DNA of 13,270 bases from assembly GCA_937901365.1 (NCBI GenBank), contig CALCEF010000141.1:1-13270 (forward strand), given 5' to 3'. Position 1 is the stretch's first letter, and each line of letters begins with the position of its first letter. The stretch comes from an uncultured euryarchaeote (GTDB lineage Archaea > Thermoplasmatota > Poseidoniia > Poseidoniales > Thalassarchaeaceae). Below are positions 1,333-13,270 of this stretch, piece by piece. The notes beneath the pieces are model-generated. The model made no database searches. It was not told the DNA's origin and worked only from the letters and a program-made list of their open reading frames with translations. The position numbers and the translations under genes were made by a program.

Positions 1333-1345
1333 CGGAAGTGAAGTG

Positions 1346-4258
1346 ATGACCACGCAACGACGACTCCTCGTGCTGCTGATGACGACCCTCTTACTCGGTA
1401 CCGGCCTAGCCGGTTGCTTGGGTGGAGATGATGGTGGAGGTGCAACAGAACCGACGCCAGATCCAGATGGCGAAACAGGTGGAGATACCACCTTCGCAGA
1501 TTCAGATGGTGATGGAATTGTCGACCTTCTTGATCAGTGTGCAGATACACCTGCAGGCACCACTGTGGATTGGTCAGGTTGTCCCGAAGCCGCAGATACG
1601 GATGGCGATGGCGTCATCGACGATGATGACGATTGTCCTGGCACAGCAACAGATGCTGAAGTTGATGCCAACGGTTGTGAGATTGTATACGACACCGATG
1701 GTGACGGAGTAGAGGATGGCCTAGACGCCTGTCCTGGCACTTTGGCGGGCATCGAGGTTGATGCCAACGGTTGCGAAGTCGTCTACGATGCAGACAATGA
1801 TGGTGTGCAGGATGCTGATGACTTGTGCGCGGATACCGAAGATGGTGTCGAAGTGGATGCCGATGGCTGCGCAGTGCCACAAGACAGTGATGGCGATGGT
1901 GTTCTCGATGACGATGATCAGTGCCCAGACACACCCTCTGGAATTACAGTAGACGAGAACGGTTGTGAGATTGTTACCGGCCCCGTAATCGAAGTGAAGA
2001 TTGGTGTCTTGACACCGCGTACAGGTGACAATTCGCACCTTTCAGAAGGTCTTGAAAATGCAGCGCAGATGGCCGTTGAGGACATCAATGCAGCCCAGAG
2101 TGCTTACGAATTTTCATTGGTCTACTTTGACACAGAATCTTCTGGCTCAAAAGGCAGTGTAGGGTCTTGGTCATTGATTGAGGGCGATGGCGTATCTGGA
2201 ATTATTGGCGGCGCATCCTATTCGGTTTTAGACAATGCATTCACACCCCCACCCAACCAAAATCAAGCCAAACCCATTCAGCACCAAATTCCAATCATCA
2301 CCCCATTTGTAGCGGACGGTGGATTGGAAGAGATCTCTGATGATGGCCTAATGTGGCGTGTGATTCCCAGCGAATCAGACAGCGCTAATGGGGCTTTGAT
2401 GTGGTCCAATATTTACGAATTAAACAATCTTGCAATTTTCTACGAGGATAGTGGATTCGGTCGTTCATCTGAGAGGATCTTCTCGGCGTCTTATGATGAA
2501 TCCAGCATATGTGCTACCCTACCTTACCCAACCAATCCTACCGATGCTCAAATTGAGGCCGCTCGCGATGAGGCCGTTGACCTTGGTTGTGAAAATGCCG
2601 TCCTCTTCTCCAAAGATACAGACGCAGCGAGATTGATTGTGAAAATCAAGGGTGTTCTTCCAGAAGCAAGAATCGTAGCATCTCACCAATCTGGTTATGC
2701 AGAATTCCCAGAACTCATGGCCCCTAGTGTGCGTAACCTTGCACTCGGTGTTGTTGGAGCCAATGCTTCACAGACATGGGAATCACCTCTCCAATCCAAT
2801 TTCGAGGCCGATTATCTGGACGCCTTCGGCTCAAATGCACCATCTCATGCCGGCTCAGCCTACGATGCAATGATGATTATGGCACAAGCTGCAATTCAAG
2901 CGGGCTCTAGTACAGGTAGCGATATCAAGGCAGCCATCCCTACAGTCGGAACTGGCTATTCCGGAATTGGAGGCACAATCACCTTCGACGCATATGGAAA
3001 TACGCCCGAGATGATGTTTGATCTATTCCGCTTCGAGGAAGCGGGCGACACCGACAACGATGGTGAAGTTGACATGACGTTTGAGGAGATGGGATACTGG
3101 AATTCATGGGATGGAATCTCCTCTCAATGCCGTTCCAATGCAGGAACCGTAGTCATCGGTATGCTCAGCCCACAAACGGGAATCCATTCCCCTTACGCCC
3201 AAGGTGAGGAAAATGGCGTCCAATTGGGTGTCGATCTACTCAACATCAATCAGCGTGGTACTTGCTTTAGCTTGACGATTGCCGACACTCAATCAACGCA
3301 ATCAGGGGCTGCGAGCGCAATGCAGAATCTGGTGAATGCTGGTGTGGTCGGTGTCATTGGCCCTCACTCAACAGAGGAAGCCATCGGAGCACTGGTGGTC
3401 GCCGAAGCAAACAACGTGCCGATGATTACCTTCGGCGCTTTCTCAAACGAAGCCATGGAAAGTGCATGGGAGGGTTGTGGAGTCACATGTACACCTTCTG
3501 ACTATGGATATCTTTGGCGAGTATCCCCTGGCCAAGACCATCACGTATCTGCTCTGTCCGCACACATTTCGAACGGTGGTTACACCGATGTCGCCATCTT
3601 GAATGATGCTGGCAAAGACAACACTGCGATTGCAACCGCCCTCAGCACAGCGCTTGGAAGCACCTGTTCAGAACAATCATTCCCTGTGGGTCAAACCGAT
3701 TTCAGCACTGAAATTTCAGCCCTATCTGGATGTGATGCAGTTGTAATTCTGGCAGAGTCAACCGATGGTGCTGCGATCCTTGCTGAAATACACACTCAAG
3801 CATTGGACATCGCCAAAATCGGTGGCCATGGAATGGGTGACATCTCCATGGAAGACACAGTCTCAGACCCAGCACACATGGACGGATTGACAGGTATTCG
3901 CATGGGAATCGATCACGATTTGGCCGAGTATGATCACGAACTGAAATATGTGTACATGATGAATTATGGAACCGAATTGCAATCGTATGCAGCATGGGCT
4001 GGAGACGCCTCTCTCATCCTTGGAACAGCAGTACTGTTGGCCGATGTGGGTTCTCACACAGCAACTCCACAGAGAGTCAATGAACACGGTATTTCAGCCG
4101 CAGCGGATCAATATGCTGTGAGTAGCGGTGAAATTTCATTGAGCACAGTCGATGGTGAAACCAGTCACACCAACCTCGATGTCTATGAATGGAGTAACAC
4201 TGGTGAATTCACAGAGATCGGCCGCTGGCGCGAAGACCTCGGCTTGGTCATGTTCTGA
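1346..4258 (+). CDS. Lipoprotein with five TSP3 Ca-binding repeats and two tandem LivK-like ligand-binding domains
   Basis: The 970-residue product is a predicted surface-anchored solute receptor. Residues 1-24 form a lipoprotein signal: RR, a hydrophobic stretch, then lipobox LAGC with Cys24. A Gly/Asp/Glu/Thr-rich linker follows. Residues 52-211 are five consecutive 32-residue thrombospondin type 3 repeats, each starting with a DxDxDGxxD-type loop and holding cysteines at repeat positions 14 and 28. Two type-1 periplasmic-binding (LivK/Peripla_BP_6) domains follow, at about 217-595 (begins VKIGVLTPRTG) and 602-970 (begins VVIGMLSPQTG). Both carry an equivalent cysteine pair, C389/C415 and C774/C796, likely disulphides. 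A further Ca-type loop, DTDNDGEVD, lies at 568-576. The frame is open back to 1034 inside antisense purM, but the ATG at 1346 begins the signal peptide. No ABC permease or ATPase for branched-chain amino acids is adjacent, so the ligand is unknown. The last 11 bp overlap the convergent hydrolase gene. Confidence 0.9.
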   Translation: MTTQRRLLVLLMTTLLLGTGLAGCLGGDDGGGATEPTPDPDGETGGDTTFADSDGDGIVDLLDQCADTPAGTTVDWSGCPEAADTDGDGVIDDDDDCPGTATDAEVDANGCEIVYDTDGDGVEDGLDACPGTLAGIEVDANGCEVVYDADNDGVQDADDLCADTEDGVEVDADGCAVPQDSDGDGVLDDDDQCPDTPSGITVDENGCEIVTGPVIEVKIGVLTPRTGDNSHLSEGLENAAQMAVEDINAAQSAYEFSLVYFDTESSGSKGSVGSWSLIEGDGVSGIIGGASYSVLDNAFTPPPNQNQAKPIQHQIPIITPFVADGGLEEISDDGLMWRVIPSESDSANGALMWSNIYELNNLAIFYEDSGFGRSSERIFSASYDESSICATLPYPTNPTDAQIEAARDEAVDLGCENAVLFSKDTDAARLIVKIKGVLPEARIVASHQSGYAEFPELMAPSVRNLALGVVGANASQTWESPLQSNFEADYLDAFGSNAPSHAGSAYDAMMIMAQAAIQAGSSTGSDIKAAIPTVGTGYSGIGGTITFDAYGNTPEMMFDLFRFEEAGDTDNDGEVDMTFEEMGYWNSWDGISSQCRSNAGTVVIGMLSPQTGIHSPYAQGEENGVQLGVDLLNINQRGTCFSLTIADTQSTQSGAASAMQNLVNAGVVGVIGPHSTEEAIGALVVAEANNVPMITFGAFSNEAMESAWEGCGVTCTPSDYGYLWRVSPGQDHHVSALSAHISNGGYTDVAILNDAGKDNTAIATALSTALGSTCSEQSFPVGQTDFSTEISALSGCDAVVILAESTDGAAILAEIHTQALDIAKIGGHGMGDISMEDTVSDPAHMDGLTGIRMGIDHDLAEYDHELKYVYMMNYGTELQSYAAWAGDASLILGTAVLLADVGSHTATPQRVNEHGISAAADQYAVSSGEISLSTVDGETSHTNLDVYEWSNTGEFTEIGRWREDLGLVMF
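1499..1978 (+). repeat. Five in-frame tandem 96-bp repeats encoding TSP3 Ca-binding units
   Basis: Five units of exactly 96 bp (32 codons) lie end to end, seen from the equally spaced codon before the ..GC cysteine at 1565, 1661, 1757, 1853 and 1949. Units 2 and 3 share a near-identical stretch at about 1661-1678 and 1757-1774 (GTTGATGCCAACGGTTG). The others are diverged at DNA level but keep the protein pattern, pointing to old duplications plus one more recent exchange. Confidence 0.88.
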
Positions 4259-7715: not shown

Positions 7716-9737
7716 ATGGCAGAAGACATTCCAGGGGATGTCTCAGACGCCAACGGGCTAGACCCAACCGCACTGGGCTTCATGTGCGGCCTTGAGGTCC
7801 ACCAGCAATTGGCCACCGGCAAGTTACACTCGCGTCAACCCAGCACTCTGTATGAGGATGGAATCGAAGACATCGAAGGACGATGGCCAAGCGCACATCG
7901 CAGATTGCGAGCCGCTCGCGGTGAAGGTGGTAGAATCGATATTGCTGCCCGCTTTGAACAACGCCGCAACCGCTCTTTTGTCTACTACCAATCACCCAAT
8001 GCAGGCCTCATCGAGATGGACGAAGCCCCTCCGTTGGAGCATGACAGTGACGCTGTCGAAGTCGCTTTGACGATGGCGGCGATGATGGATGCAAAACCTG
8101 TTGGCGCACTTCAAGCGATGCGCAAAACCGTGGTCGATGGTTCCAACACCAGCGGCTTCCAGCGAACAACTCTAATCGCTACACATGGTTCAATCCAAAC
8201 ACCAACAGGTCCTGTCGGAGTCGATGTCATCTGTTTGGAAGAGGACAGTGCACGGAAATTGGATACGCGTTCGACATCCGATGGTGAACAGGTCGTATAC
8301 ACCCTTGATCGATTGGGCGTCCCCTTGGTCGAGGTTGCAACAGCACCCGATGTCCAAACGCCTGAGCACGCCAAGGAAACCGCCCTAGCATTGGGCACAC
8401 TGCTCAGAGACACCCGTCGTGTACGCCGTGGCCTTGGCTCCATTCGGCAAGACCTCAACGTCAGCATCGGTGCTGGCGATCGTGTCGAAATCAAAGGTTG
8501 TCAGGACCTAGATTGGATTCCTCGAATCATCCGTCTTGAAATGGCTAGGCAGTTGCATTTCTACCGCTTGGCCAATGAACTCAGAGCCGAACTCGGTGTA
8601 GCACCACTTCCTACTCATCGAGATTTGGATGATGCTGAACTAGAAGCAACAGTGGCAGAAGCGGTCTCTAATCAATTACCATTTGAGTTGCAAGATGTCA
8701 CCACAGCACTTGCCTCATGCGAATCCAAAATGGTGGCTACCTCACTATCATCAGGTGCTGTTGTACTCGGTCTTTCTCTTCCAGGATTGGCCGGGAAACT
8801 TGGCACTAAAACCCTCGATGCAGAAGGCGCACAATTGCCTAGGTTGGGTCGTGAATTGGCCAGTGCTGCCAAACTGGCAGGTGTCAAGGGAATTTTCCAT
8901 TCAGATGAGCTTCCAGCATACGGAATTACAGAAGCAGAAACGGCGGCTTGCGCGGCAATTCTCGGTGATTGCTTTGTTCTTTGTGTTGCACCACAATGGC
9001 AAGCAGAATTGGCACTAGAGGGTGTGCATTCTCGCGCCAAAATGGCTTATCATCGAACCCCGCAAGAGGTTCGTAATGTCGTGATTCGCAAAGGCGCACC
9101 AGAGGATGGGACGACCACGGCGATGCGTCCCTTGCCCGGCGGCGCCAGAATGTATCCTGAGACCGACATCCCCACGACCCCAATCGCTCCAGAGAACTGG
9201 TCTTCAATCAAGGCGAATCTCCCTCCGTCTCGAGACGAACGGTTCGCTCGTTTGGGCACCACCGGTCTGTCAGAGAACCAAGTCTCTGCTCTCATTTCTG
9301 GAGAGTTAGACGATTATTTCATGGACGGAATTTCAGGTGAATTGGCTTTGCCTGAGAAGGCATGGGCGAGTGCATTACTAGATTATGGAACAGAGAAAAT
9401 CAACGCTCTCGCAGTCGCCATCCACCTTCGCGAATCTGGTTCGATTACTCGAGAAGGTGTCGAGCCATTGGTCAACGATGCAGATACAGAAGATCTTCCA
9501 ACTCTTCTCTCTTGGATGGCATCAGAAGCAGCCAGTCGAGGATTTGAACCCGCAGACACGGGGGCTGTCGATGCTGCCGTTGCAGAAGTTCTCGCTGAGC
9601 GGGCAGACTTTGTTGCCGAGCGTGGCATGGAAGCCCTTGGACCTTTGATGGGTGTAGTCATGGGTAAATTGGGTGGTGCAGCAGATGGGAAAGCGGTCTC
9701 AGCCGCTCTGAAAGAACAGATTCAGAGGCTGCTCTGA
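7716..9737 (+). CDS. gatE: Glu-tRNA(Gln) amidotransferase subunit E
   Basis: GatE works with the asparaginase-like GatD to convert Glu-tRNA(Gln) to Gln-tRNA(Gln), the archaeal route to glutaminyl-tRNA; GatE binds the tRNA and activates the glutamate with ATP. The 673-residue product starts its catalytic GatB-like domain with GLEVHQQL (25-32) and carries FVYYQSPNAGLIEMDEAPP-like sequence (88-106), DGSNTSGFQRT (141-151), EEDSAR (175-180), RLGVPLVEVATAPD (199-212), the GSIRQDLNVS strand (241-250) and the PETDIP motif (481-486). A GAD insert, diagnostic for GatE against GatB, spans roughly 320-450 and includes LPGLAGKLG and GVKGIFHSDELPAYGIT. The C-terminal GatB/YqeY domain ends in LMGVVMGKLGGAADGKAV. 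It is somewhat longer than the usual ~620-640 residues. gatD is not in the window. No ribosome site is obvious; the stop overlaps the next gene by one base (TGATG). Confidence 0.97.
   Translation: MAEDIPGDVSDANGLDPTALGFMCGLEVHQQLATGKLHSRQPSTLYEDGIEDIEGRWPSAHRRLRAARGEGGRIDIAARFEQRRNRSFVYYQSPNAGLIEMDEAPPLEHDSDAVEVALTMAAMMDAKPVGALQAMRKTVVDGSNTSGFQRTTLIATHGSIQTPTGPVGVDVICLEEDSARKLDTRSTSDGEQVVYTLDRLGVPLVEVATAPDVQTPEHAKETALALGTLLRDTRRVRRGLGSIRQDLNVSIGAGDRVEIKGCQDLDWIPRIIRLEMARQLHFYRLANELRAELGVAPLPTHRDLDDAELEATVAEAVSNQLPFELQDVTTALASCESKMVATSLSSGAVVLGLSLPGLAGKLGTKTLDAEGAQLPRLGRELASAAKLAGVKGIFHSDELPAYGITEAETAACAAILGDCFVLCVAPQWQAELALEGVHSRAKMAYHRTPQEVRNVVIRKGAPEDGTTTAMRPLPGGARMYPETDIPTTPIAPENWSSIKANLPPSRDERFARLGTTGLSENQVSALISGELDDYFMDGISGELALPEKAWASALLDYGTEKINALAVAIHLRESGSITREGVEPLVNDADTEDLPTLLSWMASEAASRGFEPADTGAVDAAVAEVLAERADFVAERGMEALGPLMGVVMGKLGGAADGKAVSAALKEQIQRLL
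9724..9728 (+). promoter_or_regulatory. Ribosome binding site of the propeller-DUF4430 gene
   Basis: AGAGG inside the gatE 3' end lies eight bases before the ATG at 9737, supporting this start and translation coupled to gatE termination. Confidence 0.55.
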
Positions 9738-11743
9738 TGCGACGCGTCTTGCTCATGGTCGGGTTGTTTCTGTTAGTATCATACCCCGGTCATGCAAGTG
9801 ACGCCCGTCACGCTGAGTGGGTCACAGATCCAATACTGCCCGATGTCCAATGGAATGCGAGTGTTGACATTGGCTACATCTCAACCGCGCCGTTGGTCAA
9901 GGAAGGTCTAGTCATCGTCAAGGGAGGAGGTGACCCCTTCACTGGGGAAGGGGCAGGCTTGGTTGCCTATCGCGCAGATACCGGTGTAGAGGTTTGGAGA
10001 ACCATTCACACAGCCAGTGACAGGGGCTTTGAGACGGCACCGTTGTTGCACATCTATGCATCAGAATCACCATCCTCCTGTTTGCCAACAACTGATTTGG
10101 TTGTCACAGGATGGACTTCTGGTCAACTCACAGCGTACGATTTTGCAACTGGAGTCGAATTGTGGAATCAATCTACAGATGCCCCGAATTGGGGCATTAC
10201 TGGTGGCGGCTTTTCGATGTCTGATGGCCAAATCGTATGGCCGACTGAAACAGGCATCATCCATGTTTGTTCATCGAATGGAACCACATTGCATCAACAT
10301 CATGATTCCAATTTACGCACCTATCGTGCCAACCTTGGAATATTGTTTGATTGGGAATCCGATGAGAATGGAACCATTGCGACATCTATGGAATGGTTGC
10401 AGGGAACTGAATCAGCTCACCTATTGCGGTACGACAGCAATTCCTCCTTAATCGAAGACATTGATCTTGTGACATTGGCCAACCTTACCGGAACCTGGCG
10501 AATCCGTTCGACACCGGTTTCAGTCATGGGACAGGGTGTTCTGCTCCATCTTCATGCGGATGGTGAATCACGACTCATTCGTTTGCATTGGAATGAAACC
10601 GGAGAACCAGAATTGCTTGATTCAATTTCGTTGGGCCCAGGTACTGCAACAACTCCAGCCGGCTTGGGATATCTATCCGCAGTTGCCGGTTTAGATGATG
10701 TGATTCATTATGGATTTTTCAATGGGTCCATGTCTGAAACAATTCGCTGGAATGCAAGCCATGTCGTAGGTGAAATCAGCTGGATCCAGTGGGGTGAGGT
10801 GGACGCGATTTGTTTACCACAAAATACAGCAGAAGGTTCGTGGCATATCGCCATCGATGTCAATCACAGTGTTGAATGGGTTCCAGATCAGGCTGGATAT
10901 CTAACCGCTGGTTGTGGTTCAGATGGCCAAGTTCATGCGGCTGCAAATGACGCCTCTTGGCTGGAAGTTCGATATGACCCCATAGATTGGAATTCGATAC
11001 ACAACGAAGCAGATCAAACGCTTGGAACAACGGATGAACCAACAACCGAGGAGCCTGAGGAAACCGAAGACGAAACACCCACTGAATCCAAAGGTTCCGA
11101 CATCCATTGGACTCCATTTATCATCCCATTCATCGGGGCTGGATTATTCCTCATTGTGGCACAGTTTGCAGTGAGTTCAGACACGCGTCGAATGATTCAG
11201 ATTGGCGCCATGTGCATGGTCATACTCGGACTGATCATGGCGGGTGCAATTTACAATACACAAATGGTCGATGAACCAGAACCCGATACGAGTCAGCGTA
11301 CACGTGCTGCAATGTTGGTGCCAGCACTGGCTGAGGGACTGGGCGAAAACGAGGTCCTCGTCTCTATTCACTTCCCGGAATCCTATGCTCCTGAACGTTG
11401 CACTGAAAGCGGTCTATACTTCGAGGGAACTGGCCAATCTTGGGAAATCGCTTCTCCACCGGAAGGCAGTTTTTGCATCATTGTTTCCACCGTGAAACTT
11501 GAAGCGGGGAAGACGGTTGAGATGGTGACTTTAGAGAGTCTTCACGAATACCAATTGACCTACGAAGTTGAACAACAAACCCTCGGCGCTTTCCTCCTCG
11601 ATATAGGGGATGCAGAAGGTGGAACAGATGGCCGATGGTGGAGCTACGATTTGAACGGCGGCTACGGCACGATTGGGATGGGTGAACAAGAGTTGCAGAA
11701 CGGCGATCATGTCGACTGGCATTTCGATGTGGGCCAGTTCTAA
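9737..11743 (+). CDS. Membrane protein with PQQ-like beta-propeller and C-terminal DUF4430 (transcobalamin-like) domain
   Basis: I know no named gene for this 668-residue architecture. Residues 1-20 form a signal peptide ending GHA. Residues ~25-425 look like a PQQ/quinoprotein-type beta-propeller, with repeat motifs GLVAYRADTGVEVWRT (74-89) and GQLTAYDFATGVELW (129-143). A Thr/Glu/Pro-rich linker (430-455) leads to two membrane helices at about 459-478 and 487-507. The C-terminal part, ~588-668, matches DUF4430: an LEAGKTV strand, GRWWSYDLNGGYGTIGMGEQ-like sequence and the ending LQNGDHVDWHFDV, resembling the yWxyxvNG..vG...xxlxdGDxvxW pattern. DUF4430 is found in the cobalamin-binding C-domain of transcobalamin/intrinsic factor and in prokaryotic secreted proteins. 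Both large domains should face outside. Ten N-X-S/T sequons lie in the propeller. Its start overlaps the gatE stop, and an ECF transporter gene follows after a hairpin, so a role in vitamin capture is plausible but inferred. Confidence 0.85.
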   Translation: MRRVLLMVGLFLLVSYPGHASDARHAEWVTDPILPDVQWNASVDIGYISTAPLVKEGLVIVKGGGDPFTGEGAGLVAYRADTGVEVWRTIHTASDRGFETAPLLHIYASESPSSCLPTTDLVVTGWTSGQLTAYDFATGVELWNQSTDAPNWGITGGGFSMSDGQIVWPTETGIIHVCSSNGTTLHQHHDSNLRTYRANLGILFDWESDENGTIATSMEWLQGTESAHLLRYDSNSSLIEDIDLVTLANLTGTWRIRSTPVSVMGQGVLLHLHADGESRLIRLHWNETGEPELLDSISLGPGTATTPAGLGYLSAVAGLDDVIHYGFFNGSMSETIRWNASHVVGEISWIQWGEVDAICLPQNTAEGSWHIAIDVNHSVEWVPDQAGYLTAGCGSDGQVHAAANDASWLEVRYDPIDWNSIHNEADQTLGTTDEPTTEEPEETEDETPTESKGSDIHWTPFIIPFIGAGLFLIVAQFAVSSDTRRMIQIGAMCMVILGLIMAGAIYNTQMVDEPEPDTSQRTRAAMLVPALAEGLGENEVLVSIHFPESYAPERCTESGLYFEGTGQSWEIASPPEGSFCIIVSTVKLEAGKTVEMVTLESLHEYQLTYEVEQQTLGAFLLDIGDAEGGTDGRWWSYDLNGGYGTIGMGEQELQNGDHVDWHFDVGQF

Positions 11744-11776: not shown

Positions 11777-11799
11777 TCGCCTCCATAGGAGGCGATTTT
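11777..11799 (+). terminator. Terminator-like hairpin with T-run
   Basis: TCGCCTCC (11777-11784) and GGAGGCGA (11788-11795) form a perfect 8-bp stem with an ATA loop, followed directly by TTTT and then a T-rich CATTTCAGTTT. It lies 33 bp after the stop of the DUF4430 gene and could end the gatE operon transcript. Euryarchaeal termination relies mainly on T-tracts, so the stem itself may be accessory. If it is a true terminator, the next gene needs its own promoter. Confidence 0.55.
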
Positions 11800-11839
11800 C
11801 ATTTCAGTTTGGGGTTGGCAGGGTGAACGAGCGGCTCAG

Positions 11840-13270
11840 ATGGGTCCGCCCAGACACTTCCGTTTACCCTTCCTTGTTCTCGTCGTCGTCCTGCCCCTGC
11901 TGCTTGAATGGCGCTATCTTGCAGCTTGGGGAGGATTCCTGTTTCTATGGTCTGCAGCGATGGTCGGCCCAACCTCACTATTGCGATGGTTACGCGTTTG
12001 GATCCCGTTGTCAATTCTATACGGATTGATTCTCCTTTTGTTTAGTGGCACCGGCGATTGGCAACAAATTTTGTTGCTCATGGGTCGTTTGCTCATCGCT
12101 CTACTCGGAATGCAGATTTTGACTTGGTCAGTCCCTCCGTCAGATGTTGTCCGAGCCTTTGAATGGGCTCTACCTCGTTTGGGCGTATCCTTGGCCATCG
12201 CTTTGCGATTGGTGCCCCGATTGGAGCGCAGTGCGAAATGGCGTCTTGAAACACTTGAGGAACGCGGATTCATCGAACAAGAATCTGGCATGAAAGCGCT
12301 GAGAACACGAGCGTCGATTTGGCCTGGGTGGTTGGCTGATTCGCTGGATCATGCCCACGATTTGGGTGACGCTGTCCAGTCCAGAGGAATATTGGCGCCT
12401 CGGAGATGGCGCCATGGAGTCAGACGTAGAATCATTCAACGAGCGCTAGGTGAAGATGTTCGTGAAGATGGTGTCAACCCACATCATTTCTCTGATTCAG
12501 TTCAATTGGGACTCGATATAGAGATTAATTTGCCAGACGGCCGTAGTATCGGCCGACACAAAGAATTGCTAAGAGGTGGCAATATTGTGCTTCTCCGCGG
12601 CCCCTCAGGTTGCGGAAAATCCAGTTTATTGCGAGTCATTGCAGGGGTATCACCATGGCAGCATCCAGTGACAGTCAACGGCAAGGTCCACATCTCAGGA
12701 CACCCCACACTCGGCGAAGTCAATCTGGCGGATGGGCCGTTCACTGAATCGATATCATGCTGGATTCCACAAGATCCCGACCGCCATGGTTTGGCGGAAT
12801 CCGTTCAAAGAGAATTCAAGATCGCCCGCCGACTTTCTGGCCCTTGGAAACAACAAGAAATGCTCGAATGTCTCGGTGAGTGGGACCTTCTCGATAAATT
12901 GCAATCACAACCAGAGAACCTGTCCGAAGGAGAACAACAACGTCTGCTATTGGCTGCCCATCTGGATTCAGCCCAACCGATCTGGTTACTGGATGAAGCG
13001 GATGTCCATTTGGACGAAGCAGGCTTCATCCAACTAGGCAAAGCGGTCGTCAAACATCGTGCCCGAGGTGGCCTCATCATCGTTGTAGCCCATCGACAGG
13101 CTCGATGGAAACGGATTGCAGATCAAGTGATTGATATTGGCGAACCAATGCCACCCTTGGAGTACCCCTCAGTGTGGGTTGAGCGAGGCGAAGAAGTGGG
13201 ACTACCTCCGGAAGACACCCTGTTTTCCCATGAACTCAAACCGGTGCGCAGCGGCGATTTGGTCCTGGTT
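11840..13270 (+). CDS. ECF transporter energising module: EcfT (CbiQ) fused to an ECF ATPase, probably followed by a second ATPase (cut by window edge)
   Basis: The frame is open for 477 codons from the ATG at 11840 to the window end. Residues ~8-125 hold several hydrophobic helices of a CbiQ/EcfT transmembrane subunit. The two EcfT coupling helices follow, with ALRLVPRLERSAKWR ending in ERG (141-143) and a second ending QSRG (180-183), where the family usually has ARG/ARS. Residues ~220-435 are one complete ABC ATPase: Walker A GPSGCGKSS (254-262), Q-loop Gln311 (IPQDPD), signature LSEGEQQRL (361-369), Walker B WLLDEAD (382-388) and H-loop His418 (VVAHR). The last residues, HELKPVRSGDLVLV (464-477), repeat the pattern that precedes the first Walker A, so a second ATPase domain probably follows. 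ECF T and A proteins are normally separate; this is a T-A(-A) fusion. ATG 11840 is the first usable start after an in-frame stop at 11786. The S component and substrate are not visible. Confidence 0.87.
   Translation, partial: MGPPRHFRLPFLVLVVVLPLLLEWRYLAAWGGFLFLWSAAMVGPTSLLRWLRVWIPLSILYGLILLLFSGTGDWQQILLLMGRLLIALLGMQILTWSVPPSDVVRAFEWALPRLGVSLAIALRLVPRLERSAKWRLETLEERGFIEQESGMKALRTRASIWPGWLADSLDHAHDLGDAVQSRGILAPRRWRHGVRRRIIQRALGEDVREDGVNPHHFSDSVQLGLDIEINLPDGRSIGRHKELLRGGNIVLLRGPSGCGKSSLLRVIAGVSPWQHPVTVNGKVHISGHPTLGEVNLADGPFTESISCWIPQDPDRHGLAESVQREFKIARRLSGPWKQQEMLECLGEWDLLDKLQSQPENLSEGEQQRLLLAAHLDSAQPIWLLDEADVHLDEAGFIQLGKAVVKHRARGGLIIVVAHRQARWKRIADQVIDIGEPMPPLEYPSVWVERGEEVGLPPEDTLFSHELKPVRSGDLVLV

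Follow-up and report, generated by a model that had tools for sequence, protein, structure and literature searches.

In the cobalamin (vitamin B12) transporter ECF-CbrT of Lactobacillus delbrueckii, an energy-coupling factor (ECF) system (PDB 6fnp; PMC5997447), the membrane component EcfT and the ATPases EcfA and EcfA' are separate proteins, and according to that account the module is shared with other substrate-binding (S) components. An EcfA with two ATPases fused in one chain (A1-A2) is known from PMC6828968, where the chain as described there holds no T component, and S folds acting without an ECF module are reported for BtuM and solitary BioY (PMC6072759, PMC11109136), the mechanism of such solitary S components being called still unclear in the latter source. 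The locus described here lies at the 3' end of a contig of 13,270 nucleotides (C141, analysed whole and called the window below) from a metagenome-assembled genome (1.76 Mb, 81% complete) of an uncultured archaeon of the order Poseidoniales (Marine Group II, MGII). Unlike ECF-CbrT, the genus to which it belongs carries T and two A domains in one chain, T-A-A, beside one S component and a PQQ/DUF4430 ectoprotein. We consider it very likely that this chain is a complete ECF module (one T, two A) in a single polypeptide, probably dedicated to one CbrT-type S component.

The initial annotation, made from the letters alone, had proposed that EcfT and EcfA are fused in one polypeptide, probably as T-A-A, and both parts of the proposal are borne out. 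On the forward strand the frame at 11840-13270 comprises 477 open codons with no stop before the contig end, and full-length relatives of 653 aa, 90% identical, align to it end to end, T being followed by A1 and then by A2. In these relatives the second Walker A sits at the predicted position (...AGDLILVQGENGSGKTT), directly after HELKPVRSGDLVLV, and A2 holds GENGSGKTT, LSTGERRR, MLLDEID and SHS; as A2 lies beyond the contig end, the A2 half of the window's own genome is predicted from the relatives. A1 had been annotated as a complete ABC (ATP-binding cassette) ATPase, and all its motifs are located, with an ABC_tran match over residues 245-387 (6.8e-17). The full-length relative P0001 has two ABC_tran stretches and the contig-truncated window protein one, and the ATPase part gives a tandem nucleotide-binding-domain fold match (the VIA-align rows for T-A-A span residues 126-666 only); the two ABC ATPases of an ECF module are thus both found. 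Among the 17 sampled genomes of the genus, a match of any sort is present in 15 and the T-A-A frame is uninterrupted in 12, the remainder being the window's own copy, cut by the contig end, two split matches and two genomes without a match. At least 44 of the 120 clusters listed have both the length (597 aa and above) and the similarity expected of T-A-A; the alignment took in 26 of these, two of them only ~40% identical to the window, and all motif counts below, for both ATPases and for T, refer to 27 aligned T-A-A proteins. Architecture, domain homology, gene order and conservation are in this way seen directly. The single T-A-A chain is new: searches of an open-licence library for T/A fusions show the A-A fusion, already known, and no T-A-A chain. 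Other T/A fusions are perhaps listed in domain databases.

The membrane part had been called CbiQ-like, and here the direct domain search fails, as CbiQ (PF02361) matches the window protein with an E-value of 0.17 and 12 bits, below the cut-off of 25. Because this match is sub-threshold, the identification of T rests on a profile of ten T domains and on two distant T-A-A homologues, P0046 and P0047. Below 1e-3 the profile retrieves just three PDB chains, all of them EcfT (2.1e-7, 2.5e-7 and 1e-4), and the two best alignments extend through both arginine motifs (ERG and QSRG) that the annotation had placed in the T part. P0046 and P0047 pass PF02361 (43.6 and 36.6 bits), their T domains being 47% and 49% identical to that of the window. 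The T domain is accordingly related to EcfT and carries its two Arg coupling motifs. The MGII T seems to be C-terminally trimmed at its junction with A1, a suggestion based on hydropathy: P0046 has hydrophobic segments at 230-248 and 256-274 after the second motif, such segments are absent in the four MGII-type chains scanned, and the EcfT match in the PDB stops at residue 248 of 280. Under the same thresholds P0047 likewise shows no hydrophobic segment after the second motif. Both distant homologues carry WGWQGE and about half of the MGII T-domain residues, and one of them is encoded on a contig of 3.0 Mb. A search with the T region of P0047 returned only itself and P0046, and within two lists of 120 proteins the precomputed PF02361 label occurs on P0046 and P0047 only; since these lists cover the top-listed proteins and the MGII chains themselves go without the label, further T-A-A fusions may exist outside the family.

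In the relatives, the gene that follows T-A-A, and overlaps its end, encodes the S component, which for the window falls past the contig end. Its product matches the ECF S fold and provides the module with a cognate membrane S component. The sole PDB match of S by sequence is CbrT, 6fnp_A (7.3e-17 with a single sequence, 1.2e-28 with a profile), and the PDB chains of RibU, FolT, ThiT and BioY give no match, so that by sequence S is a relative of CbrT and not of the other S families; Pfam applied to four S rows finds weak DUF6580 and ECF_trnsprt matches in two and none in the other two. Like ECF-CbrT, S carries the blocks PNVQPVT, SN-LG-G-WT-Q and GL-FD-HA-GN, and the system has a T and two A domains. 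On the other side of T-A-A, the gene at 9737-11743 encodes a protein with a signal-peptide-like start (by eye), a PQQ/beta-propeller-like ectodomain (PF13360, 3.1e-8), two hydrophobic segments at about residues 461-511 and, at the C-terminus, DUF4430 (PF14478, 1.8e-7, residues 602-663, 31.9 bits with a cut-off of 23.8), a putative extracellular substrate-capture partner. Vertebrate transcobalamins also end in DUF4430 (PMC4350170), and a Lacticaseibacillus DUF4430 protein (LGG_02295/LRHMDP2_2713), encoded near the adenosylcobalamin-dependent reductase gene rtpR, is annotated in PMC9963975 as a further lipoprotein component belonging to a putative cobalamin ECF transporter, so that the link between DUF4430 and cobalamin ECF systems is not new. 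Because S matches CbrT and the preceding gene encodes a PQQ/DUF4430 ectoprotein, the most plausible reading of the locus is an ECF importer for B12 whose motor is a single chain.

By analogy with characterised ECF transporters we infer a cycle in which the PQQ/DUF4430 ectoprotein would capture or concentrate cobalamin at the cell surface and the S protein would bind it and then topple. The alanine face of S helix 1 would dock onto the T domain, and the two Arg motifs of T would relay the binding and hydrolysis of ATP in the A1:A2 sandwich, so that S is freed. Both T-motif arginines are invariant in 27/27 T-A-A proteins, as are both Walker A lysines, both Walker B Asp/Glu pairs, and the signature Ser/Gly and H-loop His of A1 and A2; the A2 D-loop Asp is kept in 26. 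The Q-loop glutamine is present in A1 throughout (27/27) and lacking in A2 in every protein (Thr in 23, Ala in three, Cys in one), so the full set of catalytic motifs, a matter of mechanism and not of membership, is not found at both sites. As a rough control, two Q-loop-like words (QNP/QDP/QSP) occur in 12 of 16 outgroup A-A frames and one in the other four. The absence of the A2 Q-loop glutamine is a new observation and makes it probable that the two ATP sites differ.

The initial annotation had called for other MGII genomes to be searched for the fusion, and in the genomes sampled (60 of the order and 389 of the phylum) it is restricted to its own genus. With P0001 as query at 1e-40, four of the 60 order genomes match, and with P0047 seven of the 389 phylum genomes, all of them of the genus. 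The T profile at 0.01 reaches 13/389 phylum genomes, the seven of the genus and six others (1.5e-10 to 0.006), one of which, G294 (0.0027 over 31 residues), belongs to the same family. PF02361 is found in 0/60 order genomes, though it also misses the genus itself. The other MGII genera are argued, not proven, to be without a T component, because PF02361 overlooks the genus and many canonical T proteins escape the T profile. S homologues are nevertheless present in 57/60 order genomes and 17/17 genera, and DUF4430 in 49/60. In the neighbourhoods examined in other MGII genera (17 stretches from 16 genomes), S directly follows the gene in the DUF4430 position in 15/16 and stands apart in G017; PF14478 reaches 13 of those 15 genes, and the interval between the two holds neither a T-like nor an ATPase gene. 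LIV-type ATPase genes, recognised by eye, lie several kb off in L070 and L072.

Families of the Thermoplasmatota other than those of MGII supplied 26 S loci (L165-L193) as an outgroup. In 25/26 of them A-A, as a gene or as its cut end, lies directly 5' of S, L170 being ambiguous, and T, readable in 22 loci, is a gene separate from A-A in all 22. PF02361 was passed by all five T candidates tested and DUF4430 was found in both neighbours tested, further outgroup genes being named by position, length and motifs. These operons resemble the MGII locus in gene order and in their homologous S, and differ from it in having T and A-A as separate genes. As the outgroup loci share the order DUF4430–T–A-A–S, this arrangement is the wider one; in T-A-A the identical order is fused, and other MGII show the same place minus the motor. 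In L166, L167 and L168, long frames of high GC content were considered as extra fusions and rejected, as three-frame reading puts T and A-A in different frames; a 927-aa frame in G093 with S seemingly fused has the same cause, separate genes in different frames.

The presence of the motor is mirrored in S. An AXXXA pair in S helix 1 is the contact with EcfT, and mutating either alanine in ThiT abolished transport (PMC11109136). At the two positions used by ECF-CbrT, the pair is found in 14/14 rows of the genus (13 distinct, as L003 and L120 are the same record). Both positions are small (A/G/S/T) in these 14 rows, where all are Ala, in CbrT and in 25/26 outgroup rows, compared with 3/51 rows of other MGII, two other-MGII loci being unscored; when an AxxxA anywhere in the helix had been counted earlier, the result was 14/14 versus 4/49, with four loci unscored. 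Because strict AxxxA occurs in only 12/26 outgroup rows, it is the small pair and not strict alanine that tracks the motor. The motor-less S proteins form one group in the tree, so that the loss of the docking pair may be one evolutionary event and not 51.

In the S tree rooted on the other families, none of the 14 other MGII rows groups with the genus, which lies outside them (100/98), and constraining its S with the eight rows of its own family is rejected by the approximately unbiased test (p-AU 0.0017; 0.0125 without helix 1 and the tail), a test that is not clean because the family is not monophyletic in the S tree even without the genus; these last two S trees omit CbrT, L167 and L168 as long branches. 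In the tree of the upstream GatE (midpoint root) the genus pairs with g8, which is from its own family (90/87, short of the tool's star). In the A-A tree all eight T-A-A rows, including P0046 and P0047, cluster together (SH-aLRT 100) and are set off by a very long branch (2.4). That T-A-A was inherited vertically from the separate T and A-A of the outgroup was considered and set aside, as the A-A tree gives no source. Either T-A-A and S moved together, or the motor-less S changed in parallel after the loss of the motor. The motor seems to be missing from most MGII relatives, which apparently retain the B12-binding part. It is possible, with doubt slightly outweighing confidence, that one genus has a T-A-A-driven CbrT-type B12 transporter while elsewhere in the order the motor was lost and CbrT and a DUF4430 capture protein do the work alone, the docking face having decayed. 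The other MGII would then maybe resemble BtuM and solitary BioY, which the genus with its motor does not, and CbrT would be solitary there; to our knowledge no naturally solitary CbrT has been reported earlier. When tried alone, L. delbrueckii CbrT gave no growth support, as stated in PMC5997447.

Several other explanations of the locus were weighed. Two genomes of the genus do show split T-A-A matches, as an assembly or frameshift artefact would, but both splits are runs of N, and the 12 intact frames and the long clusters counted above leave this origin of the fusion with a negligible probability. It is also unlikely that T-A-A powers a group II system, as a motor common to several S components, with cobalamin as one cargo among others: a single T-A-A copy is found in the window's own genome, where PF02361 gave no T (a search that also misses T-A-A), and one common module would be economical, but T-A-A overlaps one particular S gene in relatives and the helix-1 face of that S is alanine-rich and near-invariant, with four distinct sequences in the 14 genus rows.

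To a similar degree we doubt that the substrate is another cofactor and not a corrinoid. S folds are common to many vitamins and Pfam is weak or silent on the S rows; these points are outweighed by CbrT being alone among the PDB S families in matching by sequence, by the DUF4430 neighbour with its printed annotation (PMC9963975) and by B12-binding domains in 59/60 order genomes. MGII are reported as B12-auxotrophic, yet showed no response to added B12 in that study (PMC9296465). A little less probable still is a degenerate or regulatory ABC half that binds ATP without powering import: the consistent T/A/C at the A2 Q-loop would fit it, and the Walker A and B motifs, signature and H-loop, intact in both domains, together with the A1 glutamine, argue against it. 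The reading of a B12 importer driven by one chain is therefore preferred. Such a motor fixes the T:A1:A2 ratio and order, and thereby offers a simple construct for single-molecule, cross-linking and structural study of S expulsion, suited also to asking if the two ATP sites are equal. In MGII, marine archaea with a reported need for B12 from outside, the natural comparison with and without motor is new and makes S function without a motor testable. The features of the locus are collected in Table 1.

Table 1. Features of the T-A-A locus and its upstream region in the window.
Feature	Coordinates	Strand	Remark
T-A-A single-chain ECF module	11801..13270	+	ends with the contig after the strand preceding the second Walker A
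EcfT (T) domain, N-terminal WGWQGE	11801..12454	+	right border approximate; no hydrophobic segment beyond second coupling motif
Coupling motif 1, ERG (residues 141-143)	12260..12268	+	Arg in 27/27
Coupling motif 2, QSRG (residues 180-183)	12377..12388	+	Arg in 27/27
A1 Walker A, GPSGCGKSS (residues 254-262)	12599..12625	+	
A1 Q-loop, Gln311	12770..12772	+	Gln in 27/27
A1 signature, LSEGE (residues 361-365)	12920..12934	+	
A1 Walker B, WLLDE (residues 382-386)	12983..12997	+	
A1 H-loop, His418	13091..13093	+	
HELKPVRSGDLVLV, A2 start	13229..13270	+	immediately precedes A2 Walker A in relatives
PQQ/DUF4430 ectoprotein gene, 5' of T-A-A	9737..11743	+	PF13360, PF14478
Inverted repeat CGCCTCC-ATA-GGAGGCG	11778..11794	+	holds Shine-Dalgarno-like GGAGG
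Probable non-canonical start ATT of T-A-A	11801..11803	+	8 nt past GGAGG; inferred

The start of the T-A-A gene is likely unusual and perhaps weak. WGWQGE, invariant in 10/10 T-domain rows, is encoded upstream of the ATG at 11840, and the coding sequence therefore probably begins 13 codons 5' of that codon. In 15 distinct contexts of the genus, the codon aligned to the Met of others is ATT (10), ATC (three), ATA (one) or GTT (one), and ATG, GTG or TTG is found in none; an internal Met/Leu before GPP is not kept as a usual start codon either (CTT in L009, CTG in L012). A hairpin holding GGAGG precedes T-A-A in all 15 contexts, with one stem mismatch (L006), and is spaced 8 nt from the start (7 in L011). 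Hairpin and odd codon together suggest a weak or regulated T-A-A start. The exact hairpin pattern occurs at one to three sites per genome in 17/17 genus genomes, this locus not being its sole place. A second site with a TTA/TAA loop is found in five of the 17 (G000:C203:6727, G060:C44:7378, G067:C176:844, G068:C65:3190 and G072:C193:3335), and in G069 and G070 a copy with the ATA loop stands beside another gene.

In most genera of the same family (L069-L074, L083) the gene in the DUF4430 position is a short one of 152-220 aa, against a long form of 540-668 aa in G017, the other family and the genus itself (L068, L075-L080, L082, L084 and window 9737-11743). Elsewhere in the window, 1340-4255 encodes a lipoprotein-like protein with DxDxDG repeats, seen by eye; Peripla_BP_6 matches two stretches of it (5.9e-50), a tandem of type-1 periplasmic-binding domains.
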